A stretch of 37,225 bases of DNA from a virus. The stretch covers positions 1 to 37,225 of the IMG/VR virus record IMGVR_UViG_3300049259_000181, one strand, 5' to 3'. Under the pieces are notes generated by a model. That model searched no databases. It was given only the letters and a program-made list of their open reading frames with translations, and was not told the origin of the DNA. Shown piece after piece: positions 1 to 35,707 of the stretch (positions are counted from its first letter, which is position 1; each line of letters begins with the position of its first letter). Made by a program: the position numbers and the translations under genes.

Positions 1-294
1 GACGACACCCTCGGCGGCGGTTCGATCGCGACCCTCGAACCGCCGCGTGAACCCACACCGGAATCGGGGTCGACTCCACCGTCTGGCCAGCGTAAATCGA
101 GGCCGAAGTGGCATCGGGAACCCGCCAAGCAGAACCGCACGATCGACGACCTGCGGGCCGACCTGCGATCGAGGCTGGAGCGTTCCCCCGAATCGATCGA
201 TCCGACGTCCGCAGAGTCGATCCGGAAGGCGCTGCGGTGCTCCCCGAAGAACGCCCGCCGGCTCCGCGACGAACACCGAGATGGGACTACCTGA
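1..294 (+). CDS. 3' end of an unknown gene upstream of the translocase (partial)
   Basis: Frame 1 is open from the first base to the TGA at 292-294, giving the last 97 residues of a protein whose start lies outside the window. The visible part is hydrophilic: a Pro/Ser/Arg-rich linker followed by a basic helical segment (from TIDDLRADL to KNARRLRDEHR) that could be a small helix-turn-helix. The stop overlaps the translocase start as TGATG, so the two are probably translationally coupled. In actinomycete integrative elements a DUF2637 membrane protein often sits directly before the FtsK/TraB gene, and this tail would fit such a protein, but the diagnostic membrane part is not visible. Function is not assigned. 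Confidence 0.7.
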   Translation, partial: DDTLGGGSIATLEPPREPTPESGSTPPSGQRKSRPKWHREPAKQNRTIDDLRADLRSRLERSPESIDPTSAESIRKALRCSPKNARRLRDEHRDGTT

Positions 295-2552
295 TGAGCA
301 CCGACCACGGCACCCAGCCCATCCCGGACCCGGGCGGCGACGGTGAGCTCGCCCGCGTCCACCGGCTGCCCGTCACCCCACCCGACGGCACCCCGGGGGG
401 CGGTGACGTGCTCGACGGCGAACTCGTGTCGGACGAAGAATACGAGCGGCTCACCAGCCAGCGCGGCCAGGCACTCGAGCGCTACGCGTACTACCGAACC
501 GAAGCGGTCGGTGTGTACCGCGGCGTCAAGTCGGTGGTGAGTCACGAGCGCACCCGAATGGTGATGCGGCACGCCCTGTGGTTCCCGGTCGCCGGCGCGA
601 AGGTCACGGTGCAGCGGTGGCGGGACGCGCACGGCAACGGCCGGCACGAACGGATGATGCGTGCCGCGGAGGCGGCCGGGAAGTTCGAGGAGGTCAAGGA
701 CTGGGAGACCAGGGACGCCGCGGCGAAGCAGGCACGTCACGAGCGGGTCATGGACTGGCTGGACCGGCCGATCGCGCTGATCAAGGCTGGTGCGCTGGGG
801 CTCGCCGCGCTGGCCGGGTTGCTGCTCGTGATCGGTGTGGTGCTCGCCGTGAAGCAGAGCGATGCGCACCTGGTGTTGCAGCCGGTCGGCTCGGTTTTCG
901 ACGCGGTGGCGTTCGCGTGGTGGGCCGTGACCGCGTACGGCCTGGCTGCGCTGCTCCTGGTTACCGCGGCCGTGTTGTTCTACCTGTGGCAGGTGGGCCG
1001 GTCCCAGGCTGAACCACCAGAGTGGCTCGCACCGCCGGAGGTGGTCAAGCGGCGCGCCGAGGTAGTCAACCTAACCCCGTCGATCGTGACGGTGGCGATG
1101 CGCGACCTCGGCATCAGGGTGCTGCGCGAAGCGATCAAAGCCGACCCCGACGGTGGGGCCCGCATGCTCGGCGCCATCACCCGCTACGGGCCGGGCTCCC
1201 AGGTCGAGATCACCCTCCCGCCGCAGGTCACCTGCAGCCAGATCATAAAGCTCCGCGAAACCCTCGCCGGGAACCTGGACCGCAAGGCCCACGAGGTGCA
1301 CATCGAAGTCAGCGCCGACAGTGAACGCGAGTTCGTGCTGTGGGTGGCGGACTCGGGTGCACTGGACCAGAAGCTGCCGCCGTCGCCGATGCTCGACCCC
1401 AACTACGGGGCGGTTGACATCTACCGGGACACCATGCCGTGGGGCGTGGACATCAAGGGCGAGCTCGTTTCGCTGAACCTGCTGCAGCAGCACCTCCTTC
1501 TCGCAGGTTTGAGCAAGCAGGGCAAGACCGCCGCCGCGCGAGCGTTGCTGCTGTGGCTCGTACTCGATCCCTCGGCACGGCTTCGCATCGCCGACCTGAA
1601 GGGCTTCGGCGACTGGTCGATGTTCGACGGGCTCGCCGAGCAGCTCATCGAAGGTGCCGGCGCGGAAAACTTCATCGCGGCCAGCGACATGCTCGAGTGG
1701 GGTGTCGCCGAGATGGGACGCCGCTACGAGCGATGGCTCGCGATGGGACATAAGGGCGATATCGGCCGGAAGGACTCGCTGCCGGGTTCTGGCTTCGAAC
1801 CGCTGTTCCTGGTGGTTGACGAGGTGCAGAAGCTGTTCGGCTGCTCGACCGAACACCCTGACGGTGGGGAGATCGGCGGGAACGGGAAGAAGGCGCGCGC
1901 GGCGCGCGCGGCGCAGGCCCTGCACGATCAAGCACGCGCGGTCAACATCCACTTCCTCGAGTTCGCGCAGAACCCCAACGACCGCAACCTGCCGGTGCTG
2001 GTCCGCGAAGGCGCGATGATCCGGGCAAGCCTGGCGGTCGGCACCGAATCGATCGCGAAGATGGCGCTGGGGGAGGCTCCAGTATCCACCGGTGCAGCGC
2101 CGCACGCACTGCGGCCAGGTCTGGACCGCGGCACGGTGGTGCTCGCGCCGGGTGAGTCGATGGACCTGCCGGGCGGCGCCACACACATCACGGTGCGGAC
2201 GTACTTTATCTCCACCGAGCAGGCGTGGGAGATCGCCGAGCGCGCCAAGGAGTTCCGGAAGGCCGCGGCGGACCAGATGCGCGCGAAGCGTGACTTCCTG
2301 CTCGACGTCATGTCGTGCCTGGGCACCGGCGACGAGGGCAAGGACGAGTGCAAGCACACCGATATGGCGGCGCGGCTGCGGAAGTTCGCGCCGACGTACG
2401 AGCCGTACAGGCGGCTCAACGGGCAGCAGGTGGTCGAGTGGCTGGAACGCGAAAGTGTGGAAGTGAAGGTGTTGCACGGCTACCCGATGGTCCGTTTACG
2501 CGCTGTGATGGCGGTGCTGGCGGAGCGGGAAGACGGCGAGGTTGAGCAGTGA
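294..2552 (+). CDS. FtsK/SpoIIIE-family (TraB-like) DNA translocase
   Basis: A membrane-anchored P-loop ATPase of 752 aa. In actinomycete plasmids and integrative elements this family (TraB) moves double-stranded DNA between hyphae. Residues 1-155 are a charged N-terminus. Two membrane segments follow at about 160-186 and 203-232. The motor domain carries Walker A GLSKQGKT (405-412) and Walker B LFLVVDE (D509, E510). The C-terminal region (about 650-752) is a small charged domain that may contact DNA. The ATG at 294 was chosen because it overlaps the upstream stop (TGATG); an in-frame ATG at 108 would run through the upstream gene. Architecture separates it from FtsK proper, which has four membrane helices and a long linker. 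Conjugative function is inferred from family and context. Confidence 0.88.
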   Translation: MSTDHGTQPIPDPGGDGELARVHRLPVTPPDGTPGGGDVLDGELVSDEEYERLTSQRGQALERYAYYRTEAVGVYRGVKSVVSHERTRMVMRHALWFPVAGAKVTVQRWRDAHGNGRHERMMRAAEAAGKFEEVKDWETRDAAAKQARHERVMDWLDRPIALIKAGALGLAALAGLLLVIGVVLAVKQSDAHLVLQPVGSVFDAVAFAWWAVTAYGLAALLLVTAAVLFYLWQVGRSQAEPPEWLAPPEVVKRRAEVVNLTPSIVTVAMRDLGIRVLREAIKADPDGGARMLGAITRYGPGSQVEITLPPQVTCSQIIKLRETLAGNLDRKAHEVHIEVSADSEREFVLWVADSGALDQKLPPSPMLDPNYGAVDIYRDTMPWGVDIKGELVSLNLLQQHLLLAGLSKQGKTAAARALLLWLVLDPSARLRIADLKGFGDWSMFDGLAEQLIEGAGAENFIAASDMLEWGVAEMGRRYERWLAMGHKGDIGRKDSLPGSGFEPLFLVVDEVQKLFGCSTEHPDGGEIGGNGKKARAARAAQALHDQARAVNIHFLEFAQNPNDRNLPVLVREGAMIRASLAVGTESIAKMALGEAPVSTGAAPHALRPGLDRGTVVLAPGESMDLPGGATHITVRTYFISTEQAWEIAERAKEFRKAAADQMRAKRDFLLDVMSCLGTGDEGKDECKHTDMAARLRKFAPTYEPYRRLNGQQVVEWLERESVEVKVLHGYPMVRLRAVMAVLAEREDGEVEQ

Positions 2553-18152: not shown

Positions 18153-18613
18153 TACACGTCCACCAGTTCGGGAAGACGCACGGTGGTGATCGGCATTCCG
18201 AACCGCGCGTCCGGCACACCTGTGGCGGCGCAGACGCTGCACCCGAATTCACCGGGCACACCCGCCGGCGAATGCCAGGCACACCACACGAGGCCGTAAA
18301 CCTCGACACCGTTCGGCAGAGTGGACAAAGCCGCGACGACGCGGGCGAGGTGGTTGAACGTGCGCACCGTTCCGGGCTCGTCCGGGTAGTCCCGCATGCG
18401 GTGGAGGATCGCGTCGCCCTCGCTGGCGAGAACGTCGGCTGCCGCGGTCGCCCATTTCTGGGCGGCTCGCGGTCGGACGTGCGGGCTGAGGTCGAGGAGT
18501 TCGGCGACGCGCAGTGGAACGGCGACCTGGAGGCAGGTCCGTAGCCACGTTTGGCCGACGCCATTCCAGTGCGTCAGCTCGTCGTGTGCCTGTGGCGTCA
18601 CGCGGTCCGTCAT
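18152..18613 (-). CDS. Unknown protein with C-terminal zinc-knuckle-like part
   Basis: A 153-aa protein. It is helical to about residue 105. The C-terminal part has CAWHSPAGVPGEFGCSVC, which places Cys and His for a zinc site. ATG at 18613 overlaps the homing endonuclease stop (TGATG). Function unknown. Confidence 0.6.
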   Translation of the reverse strand: MTDRVTPQAHDELTHWNGVGQTWLRTCLQVAVPLRVAELLDLSPHVRPRAAQKWATAAADVLASEGDAILHRMRDYPDEPGTVRTFNHLARVVAALSTLPNGVEVYGLVWCAWHSPAGVPGEFGCSVCAATGVPDARFGMPITTVRLPELVDV

Positions 18614-19146
18614 CACCGGGCCACCTCCAGATATTGGTCCCAGGTGCGGTAGCGCGTCGACAGTGTGCGGATCTCGTCGACCAACGAGATAAGTCCAGGT
18701 GTCGGGTCCCAACCAGCGGGCATCCACGGAAACGGGTCGTCATCGCCGCGCGTGGCGCGGATGTAGTCAACCTCCTCTTGCAAATGAACGACGAGCGCCG
18801 CACGGTTCTCCTTGATTCGAAGAAACGGGCGCAGAGCCTCGATTATCGGCACAGCCCTAGCGCCGCAGCGCTGCCAGTGATATTGGGTGCGGTGGTGCTC
18901 GCGACCATTTCCCGGCGAGTGAGCCGAAACCCGACCACCGAACAGCTTGGCAGCAAGGTCGTGCGGTTCACGCGCGCTGCCGGTGATGCCGACCTGTGCG
19001 CCGAAGTAGACACGTCCAGCGTGGGTGCTCATCGTCGCGGTGACGTATCCGTCTGCGTCGACGATGCCCGCGAGGTAGGCGAGGTCCGTCGCGCCCGGGG
19101 TTCCGTCGTCGCCCCGCGTCCACTCGATCTTCGATGTCGAGCTCAT
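18613..19146 (-). CDS. LAGLIDADG homing endonuclease
   Basis: A 177-aa protein with one LAGLIDADG motif (LAGIVDADG, 25-33) followed by the expected beta-rich half (VTATMSTHAGRVYFGAQVGI) and IIEALRPFLRIKENRAALV. With one motif it would act as a homodimer and cut a long, roughly palindromic site. The acidic Asp of the motif is present. It is freestanding, not within an intron or intein as far as can be seen, and its junctions are as tight (ATGA, TGATG) as those of its neighbours. Confidence 0.85.
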   Translation of the reverse strand: MSSTSKIEWTRGDDGTPGATDLAYLAGIVDADGYVTATMSTHAGRVYFGAQVGITGSAREPHDLAAKLFGGRVSAHSPGNGREHHRTQYHWQRCGARAVPIIEALRPFLRIKENRAALVVHLQEEVDYIRATRGDDDPFPWMPAGWDPTPGLISLVDEIRTLSTRYRTWDQYLEVAR

Positions 19147-22559: not shown

Positions 22560-23059
22560 CGGTGGTCTTCCCCGGGGTTGCCGTTGGGGGTCGGTGCGGC
22601 GATGGTGGCGCGGAGGTCGTCGATGGTGATGACGGCGTGATTCCCGCGTCGGCCGGAGCGGGTCCGTTTCCAGTCGACGGTGATACCGGGCAACCCGCGC
22701 CCACCGCGGCGGGACACGGAACCGGCGAGGTTCCAGGTGATCCCGTCCCGGTCGATGGTGGCGTGCAAGCACACGTCCAGCTCGCGCCGCTCGACCGCGA
22801 CCTGCCCGGCACCGAGGGCTTCGCACCAGCGGACGAACCCGTGCGGTGTGGAGGACAGGATCACCGTGACCTCGGGCAGCACGGGAAGCGTGAAATCGCG
22901 GGTTTCCGGGTTCCAACGGTGCGCAGTGGACGACCCGCAGGCGAAGTCGAGGTGGGTGCCGGGCAGGCCATGTTCGCTGATCAGTTTCGCGGCGGTAGCC
23001 ATGGTGTCGAGGACTTCCTGGGTCCTGATGTCCGCCATGGACGGTGCAGGTGTGGTCAT
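22556..23059 (-). CDS. Unknown protein
   Basis: A 167-aa protein with predicted strands (VTVILSSTPHG, DVCLHATIDRDGITWNLAG) and a basic C-terminal part (VDWKRTRSGRRGNHAVITID). ATG at 23059 overlaps the SsgA-like gene stop (ATGA). No motif recognised. Confidence 0.6.
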   Translation of the reverse strand: MTTPAPSMADIRTQEVLDTMATAAKLISEHGLPGTHLDFACGSSTAHRWNPETRDFTLPVLPEVTVILSSTPHGFVRWCEALGAGQVAVERRELDVCLHATIDRDGITWNLAGSVSRRGGRGLPGITVDWKRTRSGRRGNHAVITIDDLRATIAAPTPNGNPGEDHR

Positions 23060-23595
23060 CGGTGGTCTTCTTCCGCTTCGCCGTGGGGGTCGATGTCGTC
23101 GCCGTCGGCGGCTTCGAACAGGTGCTCGCCGGGAGGGTTGTGCCACCAGGTGCCGCCCCGGTACTGGGGTTCGCACCAGCAGCCGCTGCGGTGCTCGTGG
23201 TAGGCGAGGCGGGCGATCACGTCGTCGACGTCGACGGTTTCCTGGTGGTATTCGACGAGTTCTTCGGTGGCGATCAGGAACTCGATGACGTCGTCGACGT
23301 CGACCGCGAGGACCGCGTGCCCCTGGGGTGAGGTGAGGCTGATGTGGACGGTGTCGTGGCGCGGTTCGAGGCGCACGTCACCGACCCCGGCGGGGGACTG
23401 CAGACCTGCAGCGAGCAAATCGCGGGCGAACACCCAGTCGCTGATGGGCAAGCTGGGGAACGCGAGCCGCACCGCGTAGGGATCTTTGGTGTTGTAGTGC
23501 AGTTTCGCGAACAGTAGCTGTCCGCTGGTGATGAGGTCGGTGAGCACGGGCTGGACGACGGTGCTGGTGTCGGGCTGCCGGATGTAGGTGGCCAT
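23056..23595 (-). CDS. SsgA-like sporulation/cell-division protein
   Basis: A 179-aa protein. Residues about 15-118 follow the SsgA-family (SALP) pattern: KDPYAVRLAF (37-46), WVFARDLLAAGL (54-65), GVGDVRLEP (70-78), LTSPQGHA (87-94) and FLIATEELV (106-114). SALPs control septum placement, FtsZ recruitment and wall remodelling in sporulating actinomycetes. This one has an extra acidic C-terminal part (about 120-179) with CWC and several Trp/His, not typical of chromosomal SALPs. Carriage on a mobile element is unusual and suggests that the element acts on host septation. Start overlaps the preceding stop (TGATG). Confidence 0.85.
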   Translation of the reverse strand: MATYIRQPDTSTVVQPVLTDLITSGQLLFAKLHYNTKDPYAVRLAFPSLPISDWVFARDLLAAGLQSPAGVGDVRLEPRHDTVHISLTSPQGHAVLAVDVDDVIEFLIATEELVEYHQETVDVDDVIARLAYHEHRSGCWCEPQYRGGTWWHNPPGEHLFEAADGDDIDPHGEAEEDHR

Positions 23596-24095
23596 CACGC
23601 ACCGCCCTGGGTGGAGTCGGTGTGGGTCCCGTGGAACGGGCACGGCTGCGGGTAGGCCAGTGCGCCCGCCTGGCAGCACCAATGCCCGAACGGATCGGGT
23701 GTGAGGCCCATGGCGCCAACCCAACCCGGGAGAGCGGCGCAGCCCTCCGCGCGCTTGGTGATGTCCTTCGCCCCCAGCCGGTCCAGCAATCGACGCAACT
23801 GGCCGAGGTCCGTGGGCACCTCACGGTGCAGGGCCTCGAAGAACTCGGGGACATCGGCCAATGCCTGAAACGCGTCACCGAAGATCCGCAGGCGCAGGTA
23901 CGGCGTGCCACCAAGGACGTGCTCTTGGACGTCGAATTCCCACTTCACGCCACCACCGTCCGCGTCCGCCGAGATCTGCACGGATGGGAGTTCGTCGGCG
24001 ACGGCGGAGCGGTACCACGCTTCCTTGAGAACGATGTAGGCGAACGTGCAGTGGTCGTCAATCCGACGAGGCGGCTGGACCCAATTGGTGGCCAT
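23595..24095 (-). CDS. Unknown protein next to the SsgA-like gene
   Basis: A 166-aa protein with an alpha/beta N-terminal half and a C-terminal Cys/His group (HWCCQAGALAYPQPCPFHGT) likely to bind metal. ATG at 24095 lies in the repeated junction GGTGTGTGATGG. Function unknown; coupling suggests the same expression as the SsgA-like protein. Confidence 0.6.
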   Translation of the reverse strand: MATNWVQPPRRIDDHCTFAYIVLKEAWYRSAVADELPSVQISADADGGGVKWEFDVQEHVLGGTPYLRLRIFGDAFQALADVPEFFEALHREVPTDLGQLRRLLDRLGAKDITKRAEGCAALPGWVGAMGLTPDPFGHWCCQAGALAYPQPCPFHGTHTDSTQGGA

Positions 24096-25241: not shown

Positions 25242-26561
25242 TCAGACCGCGCGCAGACCCGAGTAGTTACTCAACGCGCTCCGATCCGGGCGCCACACCA
25301 GCCGCACATCACCAGTCGGCCCCTGCCGGTGCTTCGCCAACGCCAACTGCCGCTCGCCCGGCCGGGTGTCGTCGTCCCACAGGAAAATCACGCCATCCGC
25401 GTCCTGCTCCAGCGAACCCGACTCACGCAGATCAGCCAGGATCGGGCGCGGCACCTGCCGCTTCTCGACCTCCCGGTTGAGCTGCGCCGCCGCAACAACC
25501 GGAACATCAAGCTCACGCCCCAGCAGCTTCAACGCCTGCGAAAACCCCGTCACCTCGACCTGGCGGGACTCGCTACGCTCCCCGGCCTTCATCAACTGCA
25601 CATAGTCCACAACCACGATCCCGCACTTCGCCGGCCCGCGGACATGGTCACGCGCCAGGCTGCGCAGCTTCGGAGGTGTCAGCGAAAACGGATTCTCGAT
25701 CCGCAGCGGCGTGTCCCGCAGCTGGAGGTTCGCGAGACGCACCTTTTCCCAGTCGTCCTCGGTCAGCTGGTGTTTCGACAGGTTGCGCAGGCTGACGCGG
25801 GCGACCTGCGCGAGCACACGGTCGGTGAGTTCCTCGCGGCTCATCTCCAGTGACACGAACAGCGCACCACAGCCCTGGCTTCGCACGACGTTGGTCGCGA
25901 TGTTGACCGCGAAATTCAACCCCAGCGTCGACTTGCCCACCCCCGGGCGGGCCGCGAGCACCGTGAACGTGCCCGGCCGCAACCCGCCGTCCAGCAACTC
26001 GTCCAGGTCCGCGAACCCAGTCGGCAGCGCCGGTGGCGTCGCTTCCGCGTACCGCTTCAGCGCGGCCTCGGTGAGTTCCCCGATCCAGGCGCCGTCGTCG
26101 TCGCCGCGGCGCACGAACGACGTAGTGGCGCGATCGACCACCGCGCGAGCCTGCTCAAGTAGATCGGGCAGTTCGTCGACGGTCGTATCCCGGTGCGCCA
26201 TGTCCTGCAACGCCGAGGTCGCCTCGAGCAGCCTGCGTCTGACCGCGGTCCCGGCCACCATCTGGGCGTAGTAGGCGACGTTCGCGACCGCACCGGTTTG
26301 GTACAGGTCGAGTAGGTACGGCGCCCCGCCGCACCGCTCCAGGTCCTCGCCGAGTTGCTCGGCGACCGTGATCGGATCGACCTCCCGGTCCGCGTCACGC
26401 ACCGCGAGGATCGCCGCGTAGATCCGCCGGTGCGCATGCCGGTAGAAATCATCCGCGGTAAGCCAGTCCGCGGCCTCCGGGATGCGTTTCGGTGCGCGCA
26501 TCACCGCGCCGAGCAGGCCACGCTCGGCGTCGAGATCGGATGGGGGCAGGGGCTCGGTCAC
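25242..26561 (-). CDS. dnaB: Replicative DNA helicase DnaB
   Basis: A 439-aa DnaB. The N-terminal collar domain (about 10-115) is followed by a linker and a RecA-like motor with Walker A ARPGVGKST (204-212), Walker B IVVVDY (315-320), AQLNREVEKR (359-368) and DLRESGSLEQDAD (377-389). It unwinds the fork as a hexamer and recruits host primase. Length is near that of bacterial DnaB (about 450-470). GTG at 26561 overlaps the initiator gene stop (GTGA), so initiator and helicase are made together. Having its own DnaB frees the element from the host loader-helicase pair, as in many phages. Confidence 0.95.
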   Translation of the reverse strand: MTEPLPPSDLDAERGLLGAVMRAPKRIPEAADWLTADDFYRHAHRRIYAAILAVRDADREVDPITVAEQLGEDLERCGGAPYLLDLYQTGAVANVAYYAQMVAGTAVRRRLLEATSALQDMAHRDTTVDELPDLLEQARAVVDRATTSFVRRGDDDGAWIGELTEAALKRYAEATPPALPTGFADLDELLDGGLRPGTFTVLAARPGVGKSTLGLNFAVNIATNVVRSQGCGALFVSLEMSREELTDRVLAQVARVSLRNLSKHQLTEDDWEKVRLANLQLRDTPLRIENPFSLTPPKLRSLARDHVRGPAKCGIVVVDYVQLMKAGERSESRQVEVTGFSQALKLLGRELDVPVVAAAQLNREVEKRQVPRPILADLRESGSLEQDADGVIFLWDDDTRPGERQLALAKHRQGPTGDVRLVWRPDRSALSNYSGLRAV

Positions 26562-27718
26562 GCAACACCAGCCCGGCGGTTCCACGCGCGAACCAGAACC
26601 CGCCGCACCTCGGCGCGCCGCACCGACAGCCGCTCAGCAGCCCAGTCGTCGAAAAACGCCCGCCGCGCGGTTGCGTCCTCCTCGGTCCACCCATTCGGGC
26701 GGTCCACATCGTCCCCAGGCCACGGAGGCGGCTGCTGGCTGTCCGGACCCAGAATGCCCTGGACACGCCGACGGGTCAGGTACTCGTCCGGGATGTGCTG
26801 CGGATCCACCCGCGGGGTCCCGTACTCGTCGATCAGCGGTTTCTCCGGGTCTTCACCCGCGTTCAGCCGCCCGGCGGCGTCGTCGTACAGCCATTGCAGC
26901 GCCTTCGCCGTGTAGGCGTTGTCGCGCCGGTTCCACTCGCCGAGCGCCGCGCTGAGGCAGTCCCGGTCGTATCCGGCGCGGACCGCGCGGTCGACCTGCT
27001 CGGTCATCTCCCGGATCAACTTGTCCGACAGCCGTGTCGCGTGCCCCGCCCGCCACGCCTCGACGAGGCGGCGAGTGTCGGGGTGCGTCGCTGTCGCGTT
27101 GAGTTCCTCGAGCTTCTGACGGCGCGGTGTGGCTGGAGGCTCCGGGGATGGGGCAGCAGTCGGTTCCGGCGGCGCCTCGCGCGCGACGCGCGTGTGTGCG
27201 TGCGCGTCGCGCGTGTGCGCACGTGTCGCGCCCGCGCGCGCCCCCACCACTTCCGAAGGAAGTGAAGAAGAGGTGGCTAGTACGGGGATCGTACTAGGGT
27301 CAGCGTTTTCCCTGGTCGTAGCTGGTTCAATCCCCGTACTAGGGGGGTTCAATCCCCGTACCGGCCCTGGTTCAATCCCCGTACCGGCCCCAGTACGATC
27401 CCCGTACTGGGGGGCCGGTTCGATCCCCGTACTGGGGGCCAGGGTCAACAGGTACGTGCTGTTGCCGGTTCCGCCGTCCTCCCGCTGCTGCGACGCGGTC
27501 TTCAACAGGCCCGCGTTCCGAAGGATCGTGAGCGCGTTCGACACCGTGCCGCGGGACATGCCGCACCGTTGCACGAGGACGGTCAGGGACATGTCGTCGC
27601 TGCAGGTGCCGTCGCTGTCGGCGTCGTCCGCCAACACCATCAAGACGAGTTTCGCCGACGTGTTACCCAGTGGCGGGAGCTGGCGCATAGCCCAGCGCAT
27701 GATCTTTCGGTTGCCCAC
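26558..27718 (-). CDS. Winged-helix replication initiator (origin-binding) protein
   Basis: A 386-aa protein. Residues about 1-93 form a helix-turn-helix/winged-helix domain of the phage replisome-organiser kind (MRWAMRQLPPLGNTSAKLVL, MSLTVLVQRCGMSRGTVSNA, LTILRNAGLL). Residues about 94-200 are a low-complexity linker whose DNA carries the iteron-like repeats. The C-terminal part (200-386) is helical and may contact DnaB, whose gene overlaps the stop. This is the layout of lambda O and similar initiators, where the origin is inside the initiator gene. GTG at 27718 has AGGAAAGG upstream. Origin binding is inferred. Confidence 0.75.
   Translation of the reverse strand: MGNRKIMRWAMRQLPPLGNTSAKLVLMVLADDADSDGTCSDDMSLTVLVQRCGMSRGTVSNALTILRNAGLLKTASQQREDGGTGNSTYLLTLAPSTGIEPAPQYGDRTGAGTGIEPGPVRGLNPPSTGIEPATTRENADPSTIPVLATSSSLPSEVVGARAGATRAHTRDAHAHTRVAREAPPEPTAAPSPEPPATPRRQKLEELNATATHPDTRRLVEAWRAGHATRLSDKLIREMTEQVDRAVRAGYDRDCLSAALGEWNRRDNAYTAKALQWLYDDAAGRLNAGEDPEKPLIDEYGTPRVDPQHIPDEYLTRRRVQGILGPDSQQPPPWPGDDVDRPNGWTEEDATARRAFFDDWAAERLSVRRAEVRRVLVRAWNRRAGVA
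27277..27432. repeat. Iteron-like repeat array, candidate replication origin
   Basis: Six copies of ATCCCCGTAC lie in the linker part of the initiator gene. Five are direct: 27330-27339, 27352-27361, 27375-27384, 27398-27407 and 27423-27432, spaced 22, 23, 23 and 25 bp, about two helical turns. One is inverted at 27280-27289. Four direct copies extend to GGTTC[AG]ATCCCCGTAC. Copy 5 is a perfect palindrome with 10-bp arms (27388-27397 and 27403-27412) and the inverted copy one with 8-bp arms (27277-27297). The copies fall in different reading frames, so selection acts on DNA, not peptide. Origin function is inferred. Confidence 0.72.
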
Positions 27719-27774: not shown

Positions 27775-28002
27775 CTACGGGGGCCGGTGGTCGCAGTCGG
27801 CGGTGATGTCCCAGCGGCACAGGAGGCTTTCCAAATGCTCGGCGACCTGGTGGAGGGTGCCGGCGCGGCCGGGGCAGCCGTGGTGGTCGAGGAGGGCGGT
27901 GTCGCGGCGGCAGGCGGCGGTGTAGTCGGCGAGCCAGGCCCGTGCTTGGTGCGCGGTGACCCGGTTGGCGCGGTGTGTCAACTTTCCATGTGTCAAGTTC
28001 AC
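27775..28002 (-). CDS. Small helical protein with Cys/His
   Basis: A 75-aa protein (begins VNLTHGKLTHRANRV). Cys and His are spread over the sequence (C31, C43, C62, C70), possibly a zinc site. GTG at 28002 overlaps the helicase-methyltransferase stop (GTGA). A 56-nt gap follows before the initiator GTG. Function unknown. Confidence 0.58.
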   Translation of the reverse strand: MNLTHGKLTHRANRVTAHQARAWLADYTAACRRDTALLDHHGCPGRAGTLHQVAEHLESLLCRWDITADCDHRPP

Positions 28003-30533
28003 GCGGCGTCACCGTCCGTTGCTGGAAGGTCGAACAGGGTCGGGAGACTCGCGCGTCGTTCTTCGGTCTGCAGGTACTTGACGCCGTCCAGCCAGTAGCC
28101 GGGGTTGAGCTCCACAGCACGCCCACGGCGCCCGGCTTTCAGGGCGCGGACGGGCACGGTGCCGAGGCCGCCGAACGGGTCGTAGACGAGCTCTCCGGGG
28201 TTGCTGTACCGGGTGATGAGCCGGTCGACGATTTCGAACTGAATCGGACAAACATGCATGACTCGGGCGCGCCGGGACTGCTCGGTGTTGAGGGTGAGCA
28301 TGCGGTTGATGTCGTGCCACACCTCGGGGTGCCAGGAGCCGGGGGCGAGCGCCATGAACGTCGCGGGGAGCGCGCCTTTGCTGTCGAGGGTTTCGCCGAC
28401 GCGGATGTGGGCTTCGTAGTCGTAGACCTCGCGGAGGGTCTGTTCGGTGAACAGCCTGCTCATCTGTTCGGCGGGGAGGGCGGCGAGTTCGTCGGGGGTG
28501 AGGTGCCGGTCCCCTGAGGTGCGCCAGAACGCGTGCGCGTCGACCTGCCACCGTGCCCGCGTGTAGTCGGCTTTGTCTTTGGTGACAGGGGTGTCGGCGT
28601 AGCCCTTGGTGCGGTCGGTCTGCGGTTTGTGGAACAGCAGGATGTACTCGGGGCTGCCGGCCCCCATCTTGGTGGCGTCCTTGCACTGCTCAGACCAGCC
28701 CAACCGGTAGGTCTGGTTGTTCTCCCGCACCACGTCGGTGATGACGGTGATCATGCCGAGGTAGTCGAAACCGTGGCGTTGGCCGTGCATGATCGCTTCG
28801 GCGTGGAAGGGGGAGACGGTCGGGACGCCGGCGCCGGTGACCGCGCCGAACAGGATGCGGTCCTTGACGTGGCAGGCGTAGATCCGGCCCGGTTTCAGCA
28901 CCCGCAGCAGGTGCGGGGTGAGGTAGTCCATCTGCGCCCAGAAATGGGCGTTGTCGTCGGTGTGCCCAAAGTCCTCGTAGGCCGGGGTGTACTCGTAGTG
29001 GTTCGAGAAGGGGATGGACGTGACGATCAGGTCGACGGAGTTGTCCTCCAGCGCACTGGTCTCGGCAACGGTGTCGTTGTTCGCGAACACCCAGCCGTCG
29101 CCGGACGCTTCGATGCGTTCGACACCCATGCTGCGGGTGAGGGCGGCGACGATCCCGTCGGTGTCGAGGCCGTGCTCGCGGATGATGTCGCTCATGGTGT
29201 CGGTCAACTCCTCGTGCTGAGTCCATTTCGCGCGCAGGGTGCGGACGACTTCGCGCTCGGATTCGGCGTGGATGACGTGCACCTGGCAGGTGTGCTGCTG
29301 GCCGTAGCGCTGGATGCGATGCAGGGACTGAATGAAATCCGCGAACTTGTAGCTCACGCCCACGTAGATGGCGGTGTGGCATTGCTGCAGGTTCATGCCC
29401 TGGCCGAGCATCACCGGTTTCCCGATCAGTGCGGTGGTTTCCCGGTTGCGCCACTGCTCCAGCCGGGCCTCGCACTCGTCCGGTGTCAGGCCGCCGTGCA
29501 CGGACGAGTAGGAGACTCCGAGCTGGGTGAGGGCTTTCTCGGTGGCGTCCTGCTCGGCGTTGAGGTCGCACCAGATGATGATCTGGTCGCCGGCCGCGGC
29601 CGTAGTGTGTTCGGCGACGAGCTGGGTCATGCGGTCGATGCGCTCCGTGAGGGTGTCCCGTTTTTCGCGGGCCACGTCCTTGACGCCGAGCGTGCCGCCG
29701 CGGAACAGATGGGCTTGCCCATCCCGGTTGACCCCCGCGAGGCTGTGGTCGACGGCGACCTCGTGGAAGTGAACGTCGGCGTCGGGTAGGTCGTAGCCGG
29801 TGGCGTCGAACCCGAGGTCGGCGGGGGATTGCAGGAACACGGCCCACGTGTTGAGCCACAGGAAGAACTCGCGGCGCTTGTGCGGGTACAGGGTGAGGTT
29901 GTTCGCCTGGGTGGAGTCGCGCTGGAAGAACCGGGTGAGCGCTTCCCCGGTGGCCATCACACCGAGGAACCCGGCGTAGTGGATGAGTTCCTTGTGTCGG
30001 TTCGGAGATGGTGTGGCGGTGGCGACGAACCGATACGGCACCTGGTGGAACAGGGTCAGGAACGTCTGGAAGGTTTTCGACCCGAATGAGCGGAGCACTG
30101 CGGCTTCGTCGAGGCTGACCGCGTCGAACTCGTTGGGGTCGAGTTTGCCGTCGCGCACGGTTTCGTAGTTGGTGACGTAGATCCCGGGCCCGGTGGCGTC
30201 GTCGATGGAGCGGATGAACCGGGCGGTGAGGCCGATCGCGGCGGCTTCGGCGGCGAACTCGGTGCGCACCCCGAGTGGGCACACGATCAGCGCGCGTTGC
30301 CCGCCGGACTTGGCGAGGGTGAGCCTAAGCGACTCGAGTTGCATGCGGCACTTTCCAAGCCCGAATCTGGCGAACATGCCGCGCCGGCCACCGCGGACCG
30401 CCCACGCGACGATTGCGCGTTGGTGCGGTTTCAGCGACGAGTGCACCTCGGACTCGTCGACAGGGTGGCCGTAGGTGCGGCTGAAGTTGACCTTCTGTTC
30501 GAGGAACTCGGTGTAGCTCAGGGTGGCCGTCAT
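27999..30533 (-). CDS. Helicase-DNA methyltransferase fusion
   Basis: An 844-aa two-part protein. The N-terminal half is an SF2/SNF2-like helicase: FGLGKC (57-62, Walker A with Cys where Thr/Ser is usual), DEAA (142-145), ATATPSPN (171-178), HRIQRYGQ (405-412). The C-terminal half is an amino-methyltransferase of the beta order: catalytic TSIPF (505-509, in place of [DNS]PP[YF]) then SAM-binding DPFGGLGT (785-792) and a GRRGRAVELN element. It would methylate adenine N6 or cytosine N4. Phage P1 DarB also joins methylase and helicase and protects DNA from type I restriction, so an anti-restriction role is possible here. ATG at 30533 overlaps the DUF1643 stop. Confidence 0.85.
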   Translation of the reverse strand: MTATLSYTEFLEQKVNFSRTYGHPVDESEVHSSLKPHQRAIVAWAVRGGRRGMFARFGLGKCRMQLESLRLTLAKSGGQRALIVCPLGVRTEFAAEAAAIGLTARFIRSIDDATGPGIYVTNYETVRDGKLDPNEFDAVSLDEAAVLRSFGSKTFQTFLTLFHQVPYRFVATATPSPNRHKELIHYAGFLGVMATGEALTRFFQRDSTQANNLTLYPHKRREFFLWLNTWAVFLQSPADLGFDATGYDLPDADVHFHEVAVDHSLAGVNRDGQAHLFRGGTLGVKDVAREKRDTLTERIDRMTQLVAEHTTAAAGDQIIIWCDLNAEQDATEKALTQLGVSYSSVHGGLTPDECEARLEQWRNRETTALIGKPVMLGQGMNLQQCHTAIYVGVSYKFADFIQSLHRIQRYGQQHTCQVHVIHAESEREVVRTLRAKWTQHEELTDTMSDIIREHGLDTDGIVAALTRSMGVERIEASGDGWVFANNDTVAETSALEDNSVDLIVTSIPFSNHYEYTPAYEDFGHTDDNAHFWAQMDYLTPHLLRVLKPGRIYACHVKDRILFGAVTGAGVPTVSPFHAEAIMHGQRHGFDYLGMITVITDVVRENNQTYRLGWSEQCKDATKMGAGSPEYILLFHKPQTDRTKGYADTPVTKDKADYTRARWQVDAHAFWRTSGDRHLTPDELAALPAEQMSRLFTEQTLREVYDYEAHIRVGETLDSKGALPATFMALAPGSWHPEVWHDINRMLTLNTEQSRRARVMHVCPIQFEIVDRLITRYSNPGELVYDPFGGLGTVPVRALKAGRRGRAVELNPGYWLDGVKYLQTEERRASLPTLFDLPATDGDAA

Positions 30534-31006
30534 GCGGCACCTCCGAGGTACTCCACCGGCAGTGCGGTTTTCGGGATGTACAGAGGGTGCCGGGGTGCGC
30601 CGTGTTTAGTGGTGCCGAGGCAGCGGAGTGTGGCGGTGGTGTGCCGCAACCGTTCGGCGACGAGTGCGGCGCGGTCGCCGCCGTGCGCACCCCACGCCAG
30701 CACGGTCAGCGGGTCGTCGGCGCACCGTTCGAGGTAGGCGTCGTTGTCCGGGCCGATCGGGTCGGGGTGTCTGGTGAGCTGGGCGGGGTCGGTGGCGCGC
30801 AGTGCGTATGCGTTGCGGATGACGATCCCGGCGTAGCCCCAGTCGATGCCGAACCCGATGCAGCGGCGGACGCTCGGGTCGTCGATAGTTCCGTCGGCGG
30901 TCGAGGGGTTGAGCATGACCCAGCCGAGTAGCGGTCCTTCTTTCCAGCGGCGGACGAGTTCGTAGCGGTAGGTGCCGCAGGGGCTGATCACGGCGTCGCG
31001 CTTCAT
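30530..31006 (-). CDS. DUF1643 protein
   Basis: A 158-aa protein with the DUF1643 signatures: CGTYRYELVRRW near the start, VMLNPSTADGTIDDPSVRRC, VIRNAYALRATDP and TVLAWGAHGG. The family is found on phages, plasmids and near DNA-modification genes; its activity is not established. ATG at 31006 overlaps the cytosine methyltransferase stop (ATGA), within the repeated GCGATCGCATGA junction. Its position between two methyltransferases hints at a link to DNA modification. Confidence 0.88.
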   Translation of the reverse strand: MKRDAVISPCGTYRYELVRRWKEGPLLGWVMLNPSTADGTIDDPSVRRCIGFGIDWGYAGIVIRNAYALRATDPAQLTRHPDPIGPDNDAYLERCADDPLTVLAWGAHGGDRAALVAERLRHTTATLRCLGTTKHGAPRHPLYIPKTALPVEYLGGAA

Positions 31007-32715
31007 GCGATCGCCTCCGGGACGTGGATGATGGCCCGCAGCCGCACCCCGGCCCATGCACCAACCGGCGGCGAGACCGCGTTGCCGAAACCATCCACCT
31101 GGTCACGGGCCGGGCCCCACACGACGAAATCGCCCTGGTGATCAGGGAAGTCCACGTCGAACCCGCAGCCGCGGCCGATTTCGTGGCTGCCCATCATCCG
31201 GAAGTAGCAGTCTTCGAGTGTGAGGTTGGCGAGGGTCGCGCGCCATTGCGCGGCCAGGCATGCGTCAACGGGGTCAGAGCCAGCGCTGGCGCCGTTGATC
31301 GTTCCGGCGGCGGTGAGAAGACCGGGAATCTGGTCCGAGGTGACGGTCGGCATCGCTTCGGCGTGCACCGTGGGGATCGTGTTCTGCCGGTACGGCAGGA
31401 CCCCGGACGACAGCACCCCGAGCGTCTCCGACCCGACCTGCGTCGGCAGCGGATCGGTCGTGGGACGTGGTGCGCCCTGGTAGTTGTCGATCGCGAGCAC
31501 AACCGCTTTTTCGTGGGTCGAGGTCACGGTGTCCATCGGCAGCGTGATGTGCTGCCCGTCCCCGTTGTGCCGGTGCGCGGCGATAACCGAACCCGTCGCG
31601 ACCGCGACCGGCGTGCCAGTCGACAGGATCGCGGTCTCCTGCTGACTGGTTTGCGTGGCCATTGGCTGCCACGGGTGCCGCTCCGAACCGTGCACGGTCT
31701 TCGCCGGCATGAGCACCGCAGGGAAGTCGGCGAACTTCCGAAGGCAGCGTTCCGCGCGGGCCATCGTCCCGGCGGCCAGCGGCCCGCGTGAGCCGTCCTT
31801 GAACGTGCGGAGCGGCTTGTCCCCGATGCGGGTGCCCAAGTTGGTCAGGTCGAGCGCCGCCAGCGACGGTGTCATCGGCGGGACCACTGGGCGTCGGCAG
31901 GACGGGCACCGGTATTCGTACTGCTTGCCGTAGCGCACCGAGCCGGACGCGGGCACACCGGTTTTCCACGTCCACACGGCCTGGACGACGCGGTCGCATC
32001 GGCCACACCACGATCCGGGCCGGTGTTCGAGGTCCGGGGTCGGCAGTTGCCGGTCCCAGAACGCGATGTAGAGGCGGTCACGCGACTGCGGGACGCCGAA
32101 GAACATCGAGTTCAGGTACAGCACGCGGTACCGGTAGTTCAGCTTCTCGAATTCCTTGAGCCACCACCTGTACGTGCTGCCGTCGCCCACCTTCGGTCGG
32201 CCCGGGATGGCCGGACCCCACGAGGTGAGCTCGGTCGTGCACTCGACGAGGATCAGCCGAGGGTGGTGCTGCGCGGCATAGTGCAAAACACAGTTGGCCG
32301 TCGCCCGGTCACGCTCCGACCGCGTCACCCGCGCGTCGAACTCCGGATCGTCCATATCGAACAAGGTGAGACCCTGCGCGTACGCCTTCTGGGTGTTGGC
32401 TCCGGAGTGGTTCGTACAGGTGACTCCGGCGGCGAGCAGGTCAACGGCAGGGAGGTCGCGGACGGAGTGGTAGTCGGATGATTCCGGGTCGACGAGGTCG
32501 GCGATCCAGTGCTCGGTGTTCGGATGGTTGGCCTCGTGGACCTCGATCTTGTAGGGGTCGTGGTTCGCGGCGATGATCGTTTCGAACCCCGCCAGCTCGA
32601 TGCCCCGCGAGAGGCCACCGAAGCCACTGAAGAGGTCCCCGGCGATGACGTCGTCGTGGCGGAATCGTCGTTGTCGCTTGGCGGGACGGTGTGTGGCGGT
32701 GCGGCTTCGCGTCAT
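31003..32715 (-). CDS. Cytosine-C5 DNA methyltransferase (atypical motifs)
   Basis: A 570-aa Dcm-type enzyme. Motif I DLFSGFGGLS (27-36) binds SAM. The motif IV loop reads GVTCTNHS with C100 in the catalytic position but Thr in place of the usual Pro. Motif VI is ECT (158-160) in place of ENV, keeping the Glu. Motif VIII is PQSRDR (209-214) and motif X GNAVSPPV (544-551). A zinc ribbon (C237, C240, C270, C273) and a long variable region (about 275-510) carry target recognition. It is likely active, as Cys and Glu are kept. No cognate restriction gene is adjacent, so it probably shields element DNA. Confidence 0.9.
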   Translation of the reverse strand: MTRSRTATHRPAKRQRRFRHDDVIAGDLFSGFGGLSRGIELAGFETIIAANHDPYKIEVHEANHPNTEHWIADLVDPESSDYHSVRDLPAVDLLAAGVTCTNHSGANTQKAYAQGLTLFDMDDPEFDARVTRSERDRATANCVLHYAAQHHPRLILVECTTELTSWGPAIPGRPKVGDGSTYRWWLKEFEKLNYRYRVLYLNSMFFGVPQSRDRLYIAFWDRQLPTPDLEHRPGSWCGRCDRVVQAVWTWKTGVPASGSVRYGKQYEYRCPSCRRPVVPPMTPSLAALDLTNLGTRIGDKPLRTFKDGSRGPLAAGTMARAERCLRKFADFPAVLMPAKTVHGSERHPWQPMATQTSQQETAILSTGTPVAVATGSVIAAHRHNGDGQHITLPMDTVTSTHEKAVVLAIDNYQGAPRPTTDPLPTQVGSETLGVLSSGVLPYRQNTIPTVHAEAMPTVTSDQIPGLLTAAGTINGASAGSDPVDACLAAQWRATLANLTLEDCYFRMMGSHEIGRGCGFDVDFPDHQGDFVVWGPARDQVDGFGNAVSPPVGAWAGVRLRAIIHVPEAIA

Positions 32716-33950
32716 GCCTGCGGTCCCGCTTCACCAGCGGTGTCGCCGCCCTGAGTCGCCAGCTCGCCACGTTTAAGCTCAGCGTCCAGCGCGGCCTTAC
32801 GGTCGTCCGACTGAAGGACGGTGCCGAGCCGGTTGAGGACATCGCGGGCTTCGGCGTAGGTGATGTCGCTGGACGACGTGAGTTCGCCGGGGCGGCCGAC
32901 CAGTAGACCGAGCGTGGTGAGCTTGTCGTCCCGTTCAGTGAGGTCGAGATCGCCGAGCTGTGCGTGGAGCCGGTTCTGCTGCGACTGGTTGATCAGCGGC
33001 TGCTTTTTCGTGTCCCCCGTGCTGGCGCCCGTAGATCGCTTGACCGACTTCGCGGTGTCCTCCGCCGGCGGCTGTTCGTCGGGTTGCTCGTGCTGCCCGC
33101 CGTCGGGGCCGTCTCCGTCTTCCGGTTCCTCGCCGACAACTTCGCCGTCGATGTCGCCGGGCATCGGGTGCTCGCCGTGCAGCATCGATTCGGGGCTGGG
33201 TGCGAGGTCAACGCGGACACTGCTGTCGGCTTCCAGGGCGTAGGCCAGGTCGGTGGACTTGGGCATCCACTTGGCCAGCCGCAGGAACGTGGTTTTAGTT
33301 GCCATCTCGTCGAAGTTGTCTCGCCACGGGCCGACGACCTCGCCCTGCTTGGTGCGGGCCATGGCAAAGCGGTCGCGCCACTCCTCGCATTCGGTTTTGC
33401 TCATGTGCCAGAACGCGTAGCCACCGGTGGTGTATTTGACGATGGTGTAGTAGCCGATCGCCTCACCACGGGGACCGCTCTTCGGCGGCTTGTGCACCAG
33501 GTTGTCGGCGAGCCCGTAGTCGATGTCGAACTCGTCGTTTTCGTAGACGACACGGGCGATGAGGGTGGAGATCTGGCCGGATCGCTGCGCGAGTTCGCGG
33601 TAGCCCTGGTAGCCGATGATCAGCTGGGCTTTGTGGCTGCGGGACCGGTTGTCCCAGAACGGCAGCAGCCACGCGTGGCCGAGCACACCGGGGCGGAGGC
33701 CGAGCTGCGCGCAGGTCATCAGTCCACCGAGGACCGAGTACTTGTCGCATTTGTCGAGGTTGCGGGTGGTGCGCAGTGCGGTGATCGCGTCCCGGATCAA
33801 CTGGGCGGCTTCGGCGCCGTGCGGCATGGCGAGCGCGAACTGCTTCTCCATGCGCTGGATCTCGACAGCCAGCGACGCCGGCTGGTCGTCGCCCGTGCGG
33901 GCTGGTGCGTTGGTGTTGTCGCGGACGCGGGTGGCGAGGTTGTTGCCCAT
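32712..33950 (-). CDS. recT: RecT-family single-strand annealing protein
   Basis: A 412-aa protein. Residues about 30-245 are RecT: LMTCAQLGLRPGVLGHAWLL, LIIGYQGYRELAQRSGQI, VVYENDEFDIDYG, GYYTIVKYTTGGYAFWHMSK and FDEMATKTTFLRLAKWMP. The rest is a long acidic linker and an extra helical C-terminal domain (about 320-400) absent from short RecT proteins. RecT anneals complementary strands and promotes strand invasion with its partner exonuclease, here the YqaJ-type enzyme 50 nt upstream. AGGGAG lies 15 nt before the ATG at 33950. It would serve element replication and repair. Confidence 0.93.
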   Translation of the reverse strand: MGNNLATRVRDNTNAPARTGDDQPASLAVEIQRMEKQFALAMPHGAEAAQLIRDAITALRTTRNLDKCDKYSVLGGLMTCAQLGLRPGVLGHAWLLPFWDNRSRSHKAQLIIGYQGYRELAQRSGQISTLIARVVYENDEFDIDYGLADNLVHKPPKSGPRGEAIGYYTIVKYTTGGYAFWHMSKTECEEWRDRFAMARTKQGEVVGPWRDNFDEMATKTTFLRLAKWMPKSTDLAYALEADSSVRVDLAPSPESMLHGEHPMPGDIDGEVVGEEPEDGDGPDGGQHEQPDEQPPAEDTAKSVKRSTGASTGDTKKQPLINQSQQNRLHAQLGDLDLTERDDKLTTLGLLVGRPGELTSSSDITYAEARDVLNRLGTVLQSDDRKAALDAELKRGELATQGGDTAGEAGPQA

Positions 33951-34000
33951 GTGGAGGTGCTCCCTGGTTGGTGGGTTTGGTGCTGGCGCCGGATGTCCGG

Positions 34001-35032
34001 CTAGTTCTTGAAGTTGAGGACCCGGGGCCGGCAGGCGCGGTAGATGTCCGGGTGGTCGGTGGCGAGGGCGTCGACGTCGAGCCGGTCGACCGTGACGGGG
34101 CGCGTGTACTGGTCGGCGAGTTCGGGGTGGTTCGCGCGGAGCTTCTTCTCGGAGAAAGCACCGGTGTTTTTCCAGGTGGCGATCTCGTCGTCGCCGCACA
34201 TCAGCCGCTCACGTGTGCCGAGCCGGTCGCGGATCCGGTTCTTCAGGGCGTCGGCGTCGGCCTTCGCTGCCTTTTCCCCGGCGGCTGTCTTGTCTCGTTC
34301 CAGCACGATCTGGTCGCGTTCGGTTTCGTCGACGTCGACGATGCTGTCCGGATCGGCGAGTCCGTAGCGTTCGGCGAGGTAGCGGGTGGCGTCGTCGGAG
34401 CCGTCCCAGTCCGGCGCTGTTCCGGTCTTCACGTGGTCGACCCAGAAGCGCTTGCCGACGTCGACAAGGACCTCGATCAGGTCGTCGTCGCGTTCGACGA
34501 CGCGGTACAGGTTCCGTTGGCCGCCGATGAGGGCGGCGACGTGCCAGAAGTCCAGCCCGGTCACGGCCATGGCCCAGTTCGCCTGCAGTTCGGCGTGGTC
34601 GGCGGTCTGGCCGTCTTTCCAGTCGTGTGCCTTGAACTGCGTCGTGGTTTTGATCTCCAGGCCCGCCCCGTCGGACACGAGGCCGTCGGGGTTGACCAGC
34701 ATCCACGGCCACTTGCGTGATCGGTAGGTGCCGGCCAGGGAGACGGTGAGACCGTGTACGCGCGCGAACCGGTCTCGCAGGACCGGCTCCAGCAGGTGCC
34801 CCATCTCGGCTTCTTCGGACGGGTTGTCGTCGATGAGCGGCAGTTGGCCGGTTTTGTCCAGCCAGAGCATGTAGGGCGAGTACTTGGAGATCCCGACGAG
34901 TGTGGAGATGTCGCTGCCGCCGATGCCGGTGCGGCGTGTGGCGAGCCATTCGGCGCGGTTGGGGCCTGGTGGCAGCACCAGCTCGGCGACCGCGGGGTTG
35001 ATCCCGGGTGCGGTGTGCAGGGGAGTGGTCAT
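34001..35032 (-). CDS. YqaJ-family viral recombinase exonuclease
   Basis: A 343-aa lambda-exonuclease-like nuclease. Core residues are visible: GIGGSD (36-41), GHLLEP with E82, NPDG with D116 (114-117) and LEIKTT with E126 and K128 (125-130); a Gln helix follows (AELQANWAMAV). The C-terminal third is a charged helical region. It makes 3' single strands for RecT. ATG at 35032 overlaps the stop of the upstream gene (TAATG), so the in-frame start 4 codons earlier is not used here. Confidence 0.92.
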   Translation of the reverse strand: MTTPLHTAPGINPAVAELVLPPGPNRAEWLATRRTGIGGSDISTLVGISKYSPYMLWLDKTGQLPLIDDNPSEEAEMGHLLEPVLRDRFARVHGLTVSLAGTYRSRKWPWMLVNPDGLVSDGAGLEIKTTTQFKAHDWKDGQTADHAELQANWAMAVTGLDFWHVAALIGGQRNLYRVVERDDDLIEVLVDVGKRFWVDHVKTGTAPDWDGSDDATRYLAERYGLADPDSIVDVDETERDQIVLERDKTAAGEKAAKADADALKNRIRDRLGTRERLMCGDDEIATWKNTGAFSEKKLRANHPELADQYTRPVTVDRLDVDALATDHPDIYRACRPRVLNFKN

Positions 35033-35271
35033 TACGCGTACCACCGAGCGAAGTCGGCGTCGTGCACGACGAGTACGTCACGGGCCAGGGTCGCGGGGTT
35101 GGGGTGTCCGTCGCGGATCGCGGTGAGCGCGGCGACGAGCAGTTCGTCGGCGAGCCCGTGCCCGACCTCGGGATCGGCTTTGCCGAGTTCGGCGAGCTTG
35201 TCCCGCATCTGCTCGGTGGTGAGGCCCCGGTATCCGGCGAGTTCCCAGCGCAGTTTCTCGATCTCACCCAT
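35032..35271 (-). CDS. Small helical protein before the exonuclease
   Basis: A 79-aa acidic, helical protein (MGEIEKLRWELAGYRGLTTE at the start). ATG at 35271 overlaps the stop of a 13-codon ORF (TGATG) and its own stop overlaps the exonuclease start. It may be an accessory to the recombination pair. No family recognised. Confidence 0.65.
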   Translation of the reverse strand: MGEIEKLRWELAGYRGLTTEQMRDKLAELGKADPEVGHGLADELLVAALTAIRDGHPNPATLARDVLVVHDADFARWYA

Positions 35272-35312
35272 CAGGCCACCACCCGGCGGGCGCTGTCTGT
35301 CTCGCTGGTCAC
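35271..35312 (-). CDS. 13-codon coupling ORF
   Basis: GTG at 35312 overlaps the previous stop (GTGA) and its TGA overlaps the next ATG (TGATG). It encodes VTSETDSARRVVA. GGTGGTGG just before the next ATG may serve as that gene's ribosome site. Probably a translation-coupling cistron, if translated at all. Confidence 0.3.
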   Translation of the reverse strand: MTSETDSARRVVA

Positions 35313-35707
35313 GATGCGCTCGCGATCGGGGTGTCGCCGCCGTTCAGGTACTCGGTGATCGCTTCGGCGGGAATGTGATAGCTGTGGCCCGTGTTGCGGG
35401 CCCGGAGCTGGTTGGAGTGGATCAACCTGCGGACCTGCTTGTCGCTCTTGAGGTCGAGCAGTTCTCTCGTCTCGGCGACCGAGTACATCGCTTTGCCGTT
35501 GAGGCCGGGCCCGGTCGGGGTGTGTTCTGGCGGCTGTTCGCCGTAGGCGGCGGCGACGCGGGCGCTGAGGCGGGCGGCGAGGTCGCGGGCCAGGGCGCGT
35601 TCCTCTGGCGTCCACAGGATGCGGGCGTCGGTTGCCCGGGCGTCGGTGAGTGCGGTGGCGAGCCGCAATGCCCCTGACAGGTCGGCAACACGGTCGACGC
35701 CGGTCAT
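35309..35707 (-). CDS. Excisionase-like helix-turn-helix protein
   Basis: A 132-aa protein. Residues about 73-120 (AMYSVAETRELLDLKSDKQV, RRLIHSNQLRARNTGHSYHI, PAEAITEYL) match the MerR-like winged helix of excisionases and HTH_17 proteins: Arg-rich recognition helix and a G-x-S/x-Y wing before 'IP..AI.EYL'. The N-terminal 70 residues are helical. It may direct excision of an integrase not in this window, or be a transcription factor. ATG at 35707 overlaps the preceding stop (ATGA). Confidence 0.72.
   Translation of the reverse strand: MTGVDRVADLSGALRLATALTDARATDARILWTPEERALARDLAARLSARVAAAYGEQPPEHTPTGPGLNGKAMYSVAETRELLDLKSDKQVRRLIHSNQLRARNTGHSYHIPAEAITEYLNGGDTPIASAS

Follow-up and report, generated by a model that had tools for sequence, protein, structure and literature searches.

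In lambdoid phages, the replication origin is located in the middle of gene O. In lambda, O dimers assemble on the iterons, an AT-rich tract is opened, and the helicase is delivered; Stx phages have six iterons (PMC7466680). In SPP1, oriL lies within gene 38, and its direct repeats are bound by the initiator encoded by the same gene (PMC6316719). The window analyzed here is the whole 37,225 bp stretch (67.6% GC) of the virus record IMGVR_UViG_3300049259_000181. In this window, iterons were found inside the element's own initiator gene, the repeats were kept at the DNA level, and the initiator gene was next to a helicase gene. The best reading of the array is an intragenic iteron origin like those of lambda O and SPP1, a kind of origin that is already known. 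The first-pass annotation had proposed an iteron-like origin inside the initiator gene. This proposal is very probably right, and it is supported by the winged-helix initiator, the neighboring dnaB, and the arrays in 15 relatives.

The genes concerned are the following:
26558-27718, minus strand: replication initiator gene, 386 aa; GTG start at 27718, stop at 26560-26558; winged helix at residues ~5-95, array-bearing linker, and C-terminal part.
25242-26562, minus strand: DnaB-type replicative helicase gene (PF03796, E 2e-71; PF00772, E 2e-24).
27999-30533, minus strand: SNF2-like helicase and DNA methylase gene; it lies two genes upstream of the initiator.

Residues 20-73 of the initiator matched HTH_36 (PF13730, E 1.7e-5), and its N-terminal half matched PHROGs of the class "replication initiation" (phrog_1032, E 2e-14; phrog_391, E 3e-11; and phrog_4617). 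Residues 180-282 weakly matched the later part of other initiator PHROGs. The predicted structure of residues 1-97 was a winged helix (pLDDT 79), which resembled a predicted model of phage replication protein O among predicted viral structures (E 3e-6, TM 0.75). Many winged helices among the solved structures matched about equally, including 4pt7 ("Structure of initiator") and 4pql (Z 8.1-8.2); these matches show the predicted fold of the N-terminal domain, not its function. Taken together, the results support a two-part replication initiator composed of a winged helix and a C-terminal stretch. The Pfam, PHROG, and fold matches agreed with the earlier claim that the array sits in the low-complexity linker of a winged-helix initiator. 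The likely GTG start of dnaB, as read from the sequence, overlaps the initiator stop codon as GTGA. Upstream of the initiator are the SNF2/methylase gene and genes for a C5 methylase, RecT, and a RecE-like nuclease.

The array was located at initiator residues 98-144, behind the winged helix and between the DNA-binding and C-terminal parts. It is composed of six iterons:
27280-27294, minus strand: iteron R1, inverted, GTACGATCCCCGTAC; inside the inverted repeat 27277-27297 (arms 8).
27325-27339, plus strand: iteron R2, GTTCAATCCCCGTAC.
27347-27361, plus strand: iteron R3, GTTCAATCCCCGTAC.
27370-27384, plus strand: iteron R4, GTTCAATCCCCGTAC.
27393-27407, plus strand: iteron R5, GTACGATCCCCGTAC; inside the inverted repeat 27388-27412 (arms 10, spacer 5).
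27418-27432, plus strand: iteron R6, GTTCGATCCCCGTAC.

A search of the whole 37-kb window for ATCCCCGTAC yielded exactly six exact copies, all at 27280-27432, and zero copies outside this region. Five copies were on the plus strand (starts 27330, 27352, 27375, 27398, and 27423), and one was inverted (27280-27289, minus strand). The starts of the direct copies were 22, 23, 23, and 25 bp apart, as expected from the earlier description of six repeats, five of them in the same direction at 22-25 bp. The iteron centers were at 27287, 27332, 27354, 27377, 27400, and 27425, with steps of 45, 22, 23, 23, and 25 bp. The inverted R1 is 45 bp (two steps) from its neighbor and thus stays on the ~22.5-bp ladder. 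A decayed seventh iteron in this 45-bp gap between R1 and R2 was rejected, as a weight-matrix scan gave no site above background there. In the scan of the window, the six iterons scored 28-32 bits and the best other site scored 13.4 bits. The unit conserved by alignment was the 18-bp GTWCRATCCCCGTACYRG, with 15 invariant columns, most inside the 18-bp core. In general, this unit forms an imperfect inverted repeat around a 5-nt spacer; in R1 and R5 the inverted repeat is perfect. Two details of the first-pass annotation were therefore adjusted: the repeat occurs in six exact copies as claimed, but the unit is longer, with the 18-bp core; and the two perfect inverted repeats (27277-27297 and 27388-27412) were confirmed, but each contains a 5-nt spacer and is not a perfect palindrome.

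No other zone of the window was as dense in short repeats as the array, where 220 bp contained 86 repeated 9-mer pairs; the second zone had 14. The initiator gene contained 95 repeated 9-mer pairs, compared with a mean of 8.3 and a maximum of 25 in 400 synonymous codon shuffles, none of which reached the observed repeats. No excess of this size was seen when 13 other genes of the window were put through the same test (lowest p 0.035). Within 200 bp, six copies were observed, compared with a maximum of four for a 10-mer in 3000 same-protein codon redraws and a maximum of three in 60 Markov genomes of 37 kb. The iteron centers fell in codon positions 2, 2, 1, 2, 0, and 2, covering all three frames. 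Three of the five direct copies share one frame and are read as TGIEP; the other two are read as VRGLN and YGDRTG. The repeats could in principle be a peptide feature, a linker grown by in-frame duplication, and the low complexity of the linker and the three TGIEP readings are consistent with this. However, spacings of 22, 23, and 25 are not multiples of three, one copy is inverted, and the shuffle test and the frame changes refute a peptide-level reading, which has almost no probability left. Since the array exceeds any synonymous recoding tried and its copies occupy three frames, conservation acts on the DNA and not on the peptide. The earlier argument from the different reading frames was thus borne out by the codon positions and the synonymous shuffles.

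The form of the sites also suits a regulatory role, in which the winged-helix protein or another repressor would bind the array as operators, regulating its own early operon or blocking transcription, and replication would start elsewhere. MarR/ArsR-type winged helices are among the nearest solved folds of the N-terminal domain, and near-palindromic sites are typical of operators. However, the sites lie 280 nt inside the gene and not at a promoter, and neither a promoter-like site nor a terminator was found near the array. The rest of the window has zero copies. The relatives have their sites at the same place and spacing, and so does lambda O, whose sites form the origin. Operators in place of an origin are improbable, and an operator role could exist in addition to the origin.

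The flanks of the array contained two further features:
27249-27331, no strand: candidate unwinding element, where the gene is most AT-rich; 48-50% AT, which ranks at the 98.5-98.7th percentile of the window.
27186-27226, no strand: alternating purine-pyrimidine tract, Z-DNA-prone, 41 nt with one phase break, behind the AT-rich stretch.

Read along the gene, the candidate unwinding element falls at the array's 3' end. The AT-richest 40 nt of the gene lay at the 3' end of the array or at most ~100 nt from it in lambda, L080, L083, and the window, but not in several other initiators. The alternating tract lies ~54 nt past the last iteron in the direction of the gene. Its adjoining runs of 22 and 19 nt rank first and second in length among the alternating purine-pyrimidine runs in the window. 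Synonymous shuffles reached the 45-nt alternation in 2 of 300 cases and the longest run in 33 of 300, so that the tract is supported on the 45-nt measure only. The tract was absent from every relative compared. The third-position GC skew of the coding strand was −0.35 to −0.53 just upstream of the array and +0.15 to +0.19 just downstream, and it was negative again beyond 25 kb. The sign change at the array fits a fork start, but it holds over ~2 kb only. The skew flip lies within one operon (25242-27718 vs. 27775-35707).

It is highly probable that the six-iteron array is the replication origin of the element, placed within its own initiator gene and acting by a winged-helix/DnaB route. By this route, the winged helix would bind the six sites, probably as a dimer per near-palindromic 15-18 bp iteron. 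The bound sites would be about two helical turns apart (~22.5-bp steps), and the DNA would be wrapped. The nucleoprotein complex may then open the adjoining AT-richer stretch at 27249-27331, and the C-terminal part of the initiator may deliver the phage DnaB encoded directly downstream. We infer dimer binding, opening, helicase delivery, and the array as the only origin. A second origin elsewhere is possible, since the record may not be a whole genome; SPP1 has two.

Among the ORFs searched, which were part of all ORFs of the window, an M23 endolysin and an FtsK/SpoIIIE-like gene were found, and capsid, portal, and terminase gave no match. Given the FtsK/SpoIIIE-like gene and the absence of capsid and terminase matches among these ORFs, the record may not be a complete phage. 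The FtsK/SpoIIIE match (PF01580, phrog_1358) is to an 814-aa protein at the left end of the window (108-2552). The record probably has an actinobacterial setting, to judge by its G+C content, the presence of an SsgA-like gene, and the isolates that occur among its relatives. The SsgA-like gene (23056-23724; PF04686, E 2e-25), here on a virus record, corresponds to a streptomycete sporulation and cell division protein. The second-densest repeat zone in the window is located near 23200, within this gene. A small ORF at 18613-19146 has a LAGLIDADG-like motif (YLAGIVDADGYV) without a Pfam match and perhaps encodes a homing endonuclease.

Iteron-like arrays are also found in centromeres. Together with the FtsK/SpoIIIE-like gene at the left end, this could point to another multi-copy cis site, one for partition (a centromere), for packaging, or for recombination. 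However, the ORFs searched included no ParB- or ParM-type partner, and such a site would have no reason to be placed inside the initiator and tied to initiator genes across many relatives. This reading is very unlikely.

No close relative of the window's own initiator was found in phages, viral_contigs, or genome_contigs. Thirteen loci were fetched with an alignment of the winged helix and two distant homologues, which were 36 and 34% identical to it; the L080 initiator fetched more. In 13 of 15 distinct relatives, a significant array was found directly behind the winged helix (p ≤ 0.003 in the synonymous test); the other two gave p values of 0.027 and 0.047. The repeat distances were mostly 22-25 bp or combinations thereof, and mostly not multiples of three. 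L148, with 21-bp, in-frame repeats, was the exception. The repeat units differed entirely by lineage: GTCTCAAAATGAGAC in L142, GAGGGTGCCA in L140, CTTGTCA-TGACAAG in L136, and TGACGGTCTCGGACACCGTCA in L080/L144. The linker arrays of L080/L144, L136/L137, L140, L142, and L145-L147 resemble that of the window in the winged-helix family (36% identity to L080), the place in the gene, the spacing of mostly 22-25 bp, and the possession of an own palindromic repeat. They differ in the array sequences, and many have GAACC-TCA or AACCATCA behind the array, which the window lacks. The comparison of repeats and linker peptides proposed by the first-pass annotation thus showed that place and spacing are kept in the relatives while repeat sequence and peptide differ. 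As judged from these loci, this pattern is the mark of iterons that probably co-evolve with their initiator.

An independent sample of 80 loci was fetched by the SNF2/methylase gene alone and subjected to the same test with simple gene calls. None of 100 shuffles reached the observed repeats in 13 of 25 initiator clusters, compared with 30 of 604 other gene clusters (Fisher p 3e-10). At least a few of these 30 clusters look like initiators themselves or like antisense frames of initiators, so that the counts would, if anything, underestimate the contrast. The dnaB neighbors in known phages were only 38% identical, and MrSmee gp55 and ArV2 gp59 also had linker repeats. Prophage initiators of the MRIRSIKPEFWRS type (L061, L063, L065, L075, and L093) had linker tandem repeats GGAACAGGGGAACAGGGG, read as EQGNRGTGEQGNRGTG, and in several of them TCGCGAGACCCTCGCGA palindromes adjoin these repeats. 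The iteron itself was also sought elsewhere. A two-copy pattern matched 24 viral contigs, which on inspection were coding or tandem repeats of unrelated context and period. The 18-bp consensus was found in nine contigs, only one with two copies, and these were within a 74-bp tandem repeat of another gene.

Many relatives had short repeats 11-13 nt apart behind the array, GAACC-TCA or AACCATCA, the latter often as three 11-mers. A blind scan of viral contigs with (AACCATCANNN)x3, 24 fixed bases, gave 22 stretches. A 22-23 bp repeat array was present at most 220 bp upstream of the 11-mers in 13 of these stretches; some others had four to six AACCATCA in a row. At least three AACCATCA exactly 11 nt apart were found in L159-L180 (e.g., L163, L172, and L176), L139, and L083 (4312-4341). 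They usually lay right behind the 22-bp iteron array, and the replication-initiation genes containing them belong to several families. L083, which had been fetched by the methylase gene, carries a near copy of the triple 11-mer. Eight of these ORFs were checked: six matched replication-initiation or DnaD-like loader PHROGs, and two matched nothing. The first 11-mer copy was in frames 0, 1, and 2 in 12, 7, and 1 of 20 distinct cases, respectively, and so the element seems to be kept as DNA. The triple 11-mer was absent from the window, where the best match was 15 of 24 positions against a shuffled maximum of 16. Among the matches listed by a literature text search for AACCATCA, all were unrelated and mostly of the primer type, which says nothing on novelty.

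A joint reading of these results has, in our judgment, an even chance of being correct. Winged-helix phage initiators of a very broad class would, as a rule, contain their origin within the gene, and these origins would be built as a module. In this module, a near-palindromic iteron specific to each lineage would be repeated on a 22-23 bp ladder and would diverge together with the DNA-binding domain. Behind it, many lineages would have a near-invariant (AACCATCANNN)x3, spaced at half the iteron period, which would serve in unwinding or loading and be recognized by a conserved factor. The window would be a GC-rich branch in which the 11-mers were replaced by a purine tract and a Z-DNA-prone stretch.

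The analysis locates a likely replication origin with base precision in an element without a close sequenced relative. A test that needs only sequence, namely a search for repeats defying synonymous recoding, finds such origins in otherwise unrelated phage genomes, and the comparative result reaches wider than this window. The fixed position and the changing iteron sequence provide paired DNA-binding domains and cognate sites, in which co-evolution is directly testable. The 11-mers conserved in many relatives are a separate lead on strand opening.

Compared with SPP1 oriL, the window likewise has direct repeats inside the initiator's own gene and the phage's own DnaB-type helicase nearby. SPP1 differs in that it encodes gp39 as a separate loader and has a second origin (oriR); in the window, neither was identified. 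The window initiator falls outside the Pfam lambda O family: it had no match to PF04492 (Phage_rep_O), which lambda O matched at 6e-36. Both proteins matched phrog_391, phrog_678, and phrog_345, partly in different stretches. A search of the PDB by sequence found no lambda O structure. Compared with ori-lambda, the iteron sequence of the window is unrelated, one iteron is inverted, and the AT-rich element is far weaker (80% AT over 40 nt in lambda vs. only 48-50% AT in the candidate element). The next gene is the loader P in lambda, whereas it is the DnaB helicase in the window, with no P-type loader following. Lambda O, used as a positive control, behaved like the relatives in the same synonymous test, with 18 pairs against 1.2. 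Its iterons are 20, 24, and 23 bp apart, with the AT-rich stretch right behind. In both systems, the iterons follow the N-terminal DNA-binding domain within the initiator gene at comparable steps (20-24 bp in ori-lambda), they are inverted repeats with a 5-nt spacer (TCCCTC-AAAAC-GAGGGA in lambda and AGTACG-ATCCC-CGTACT in the window), the AT-richest stretch is directly behind the array, and the initiator gene shares 4 nt with the replication gene that follows it (O/P in lambda and GTGA here).
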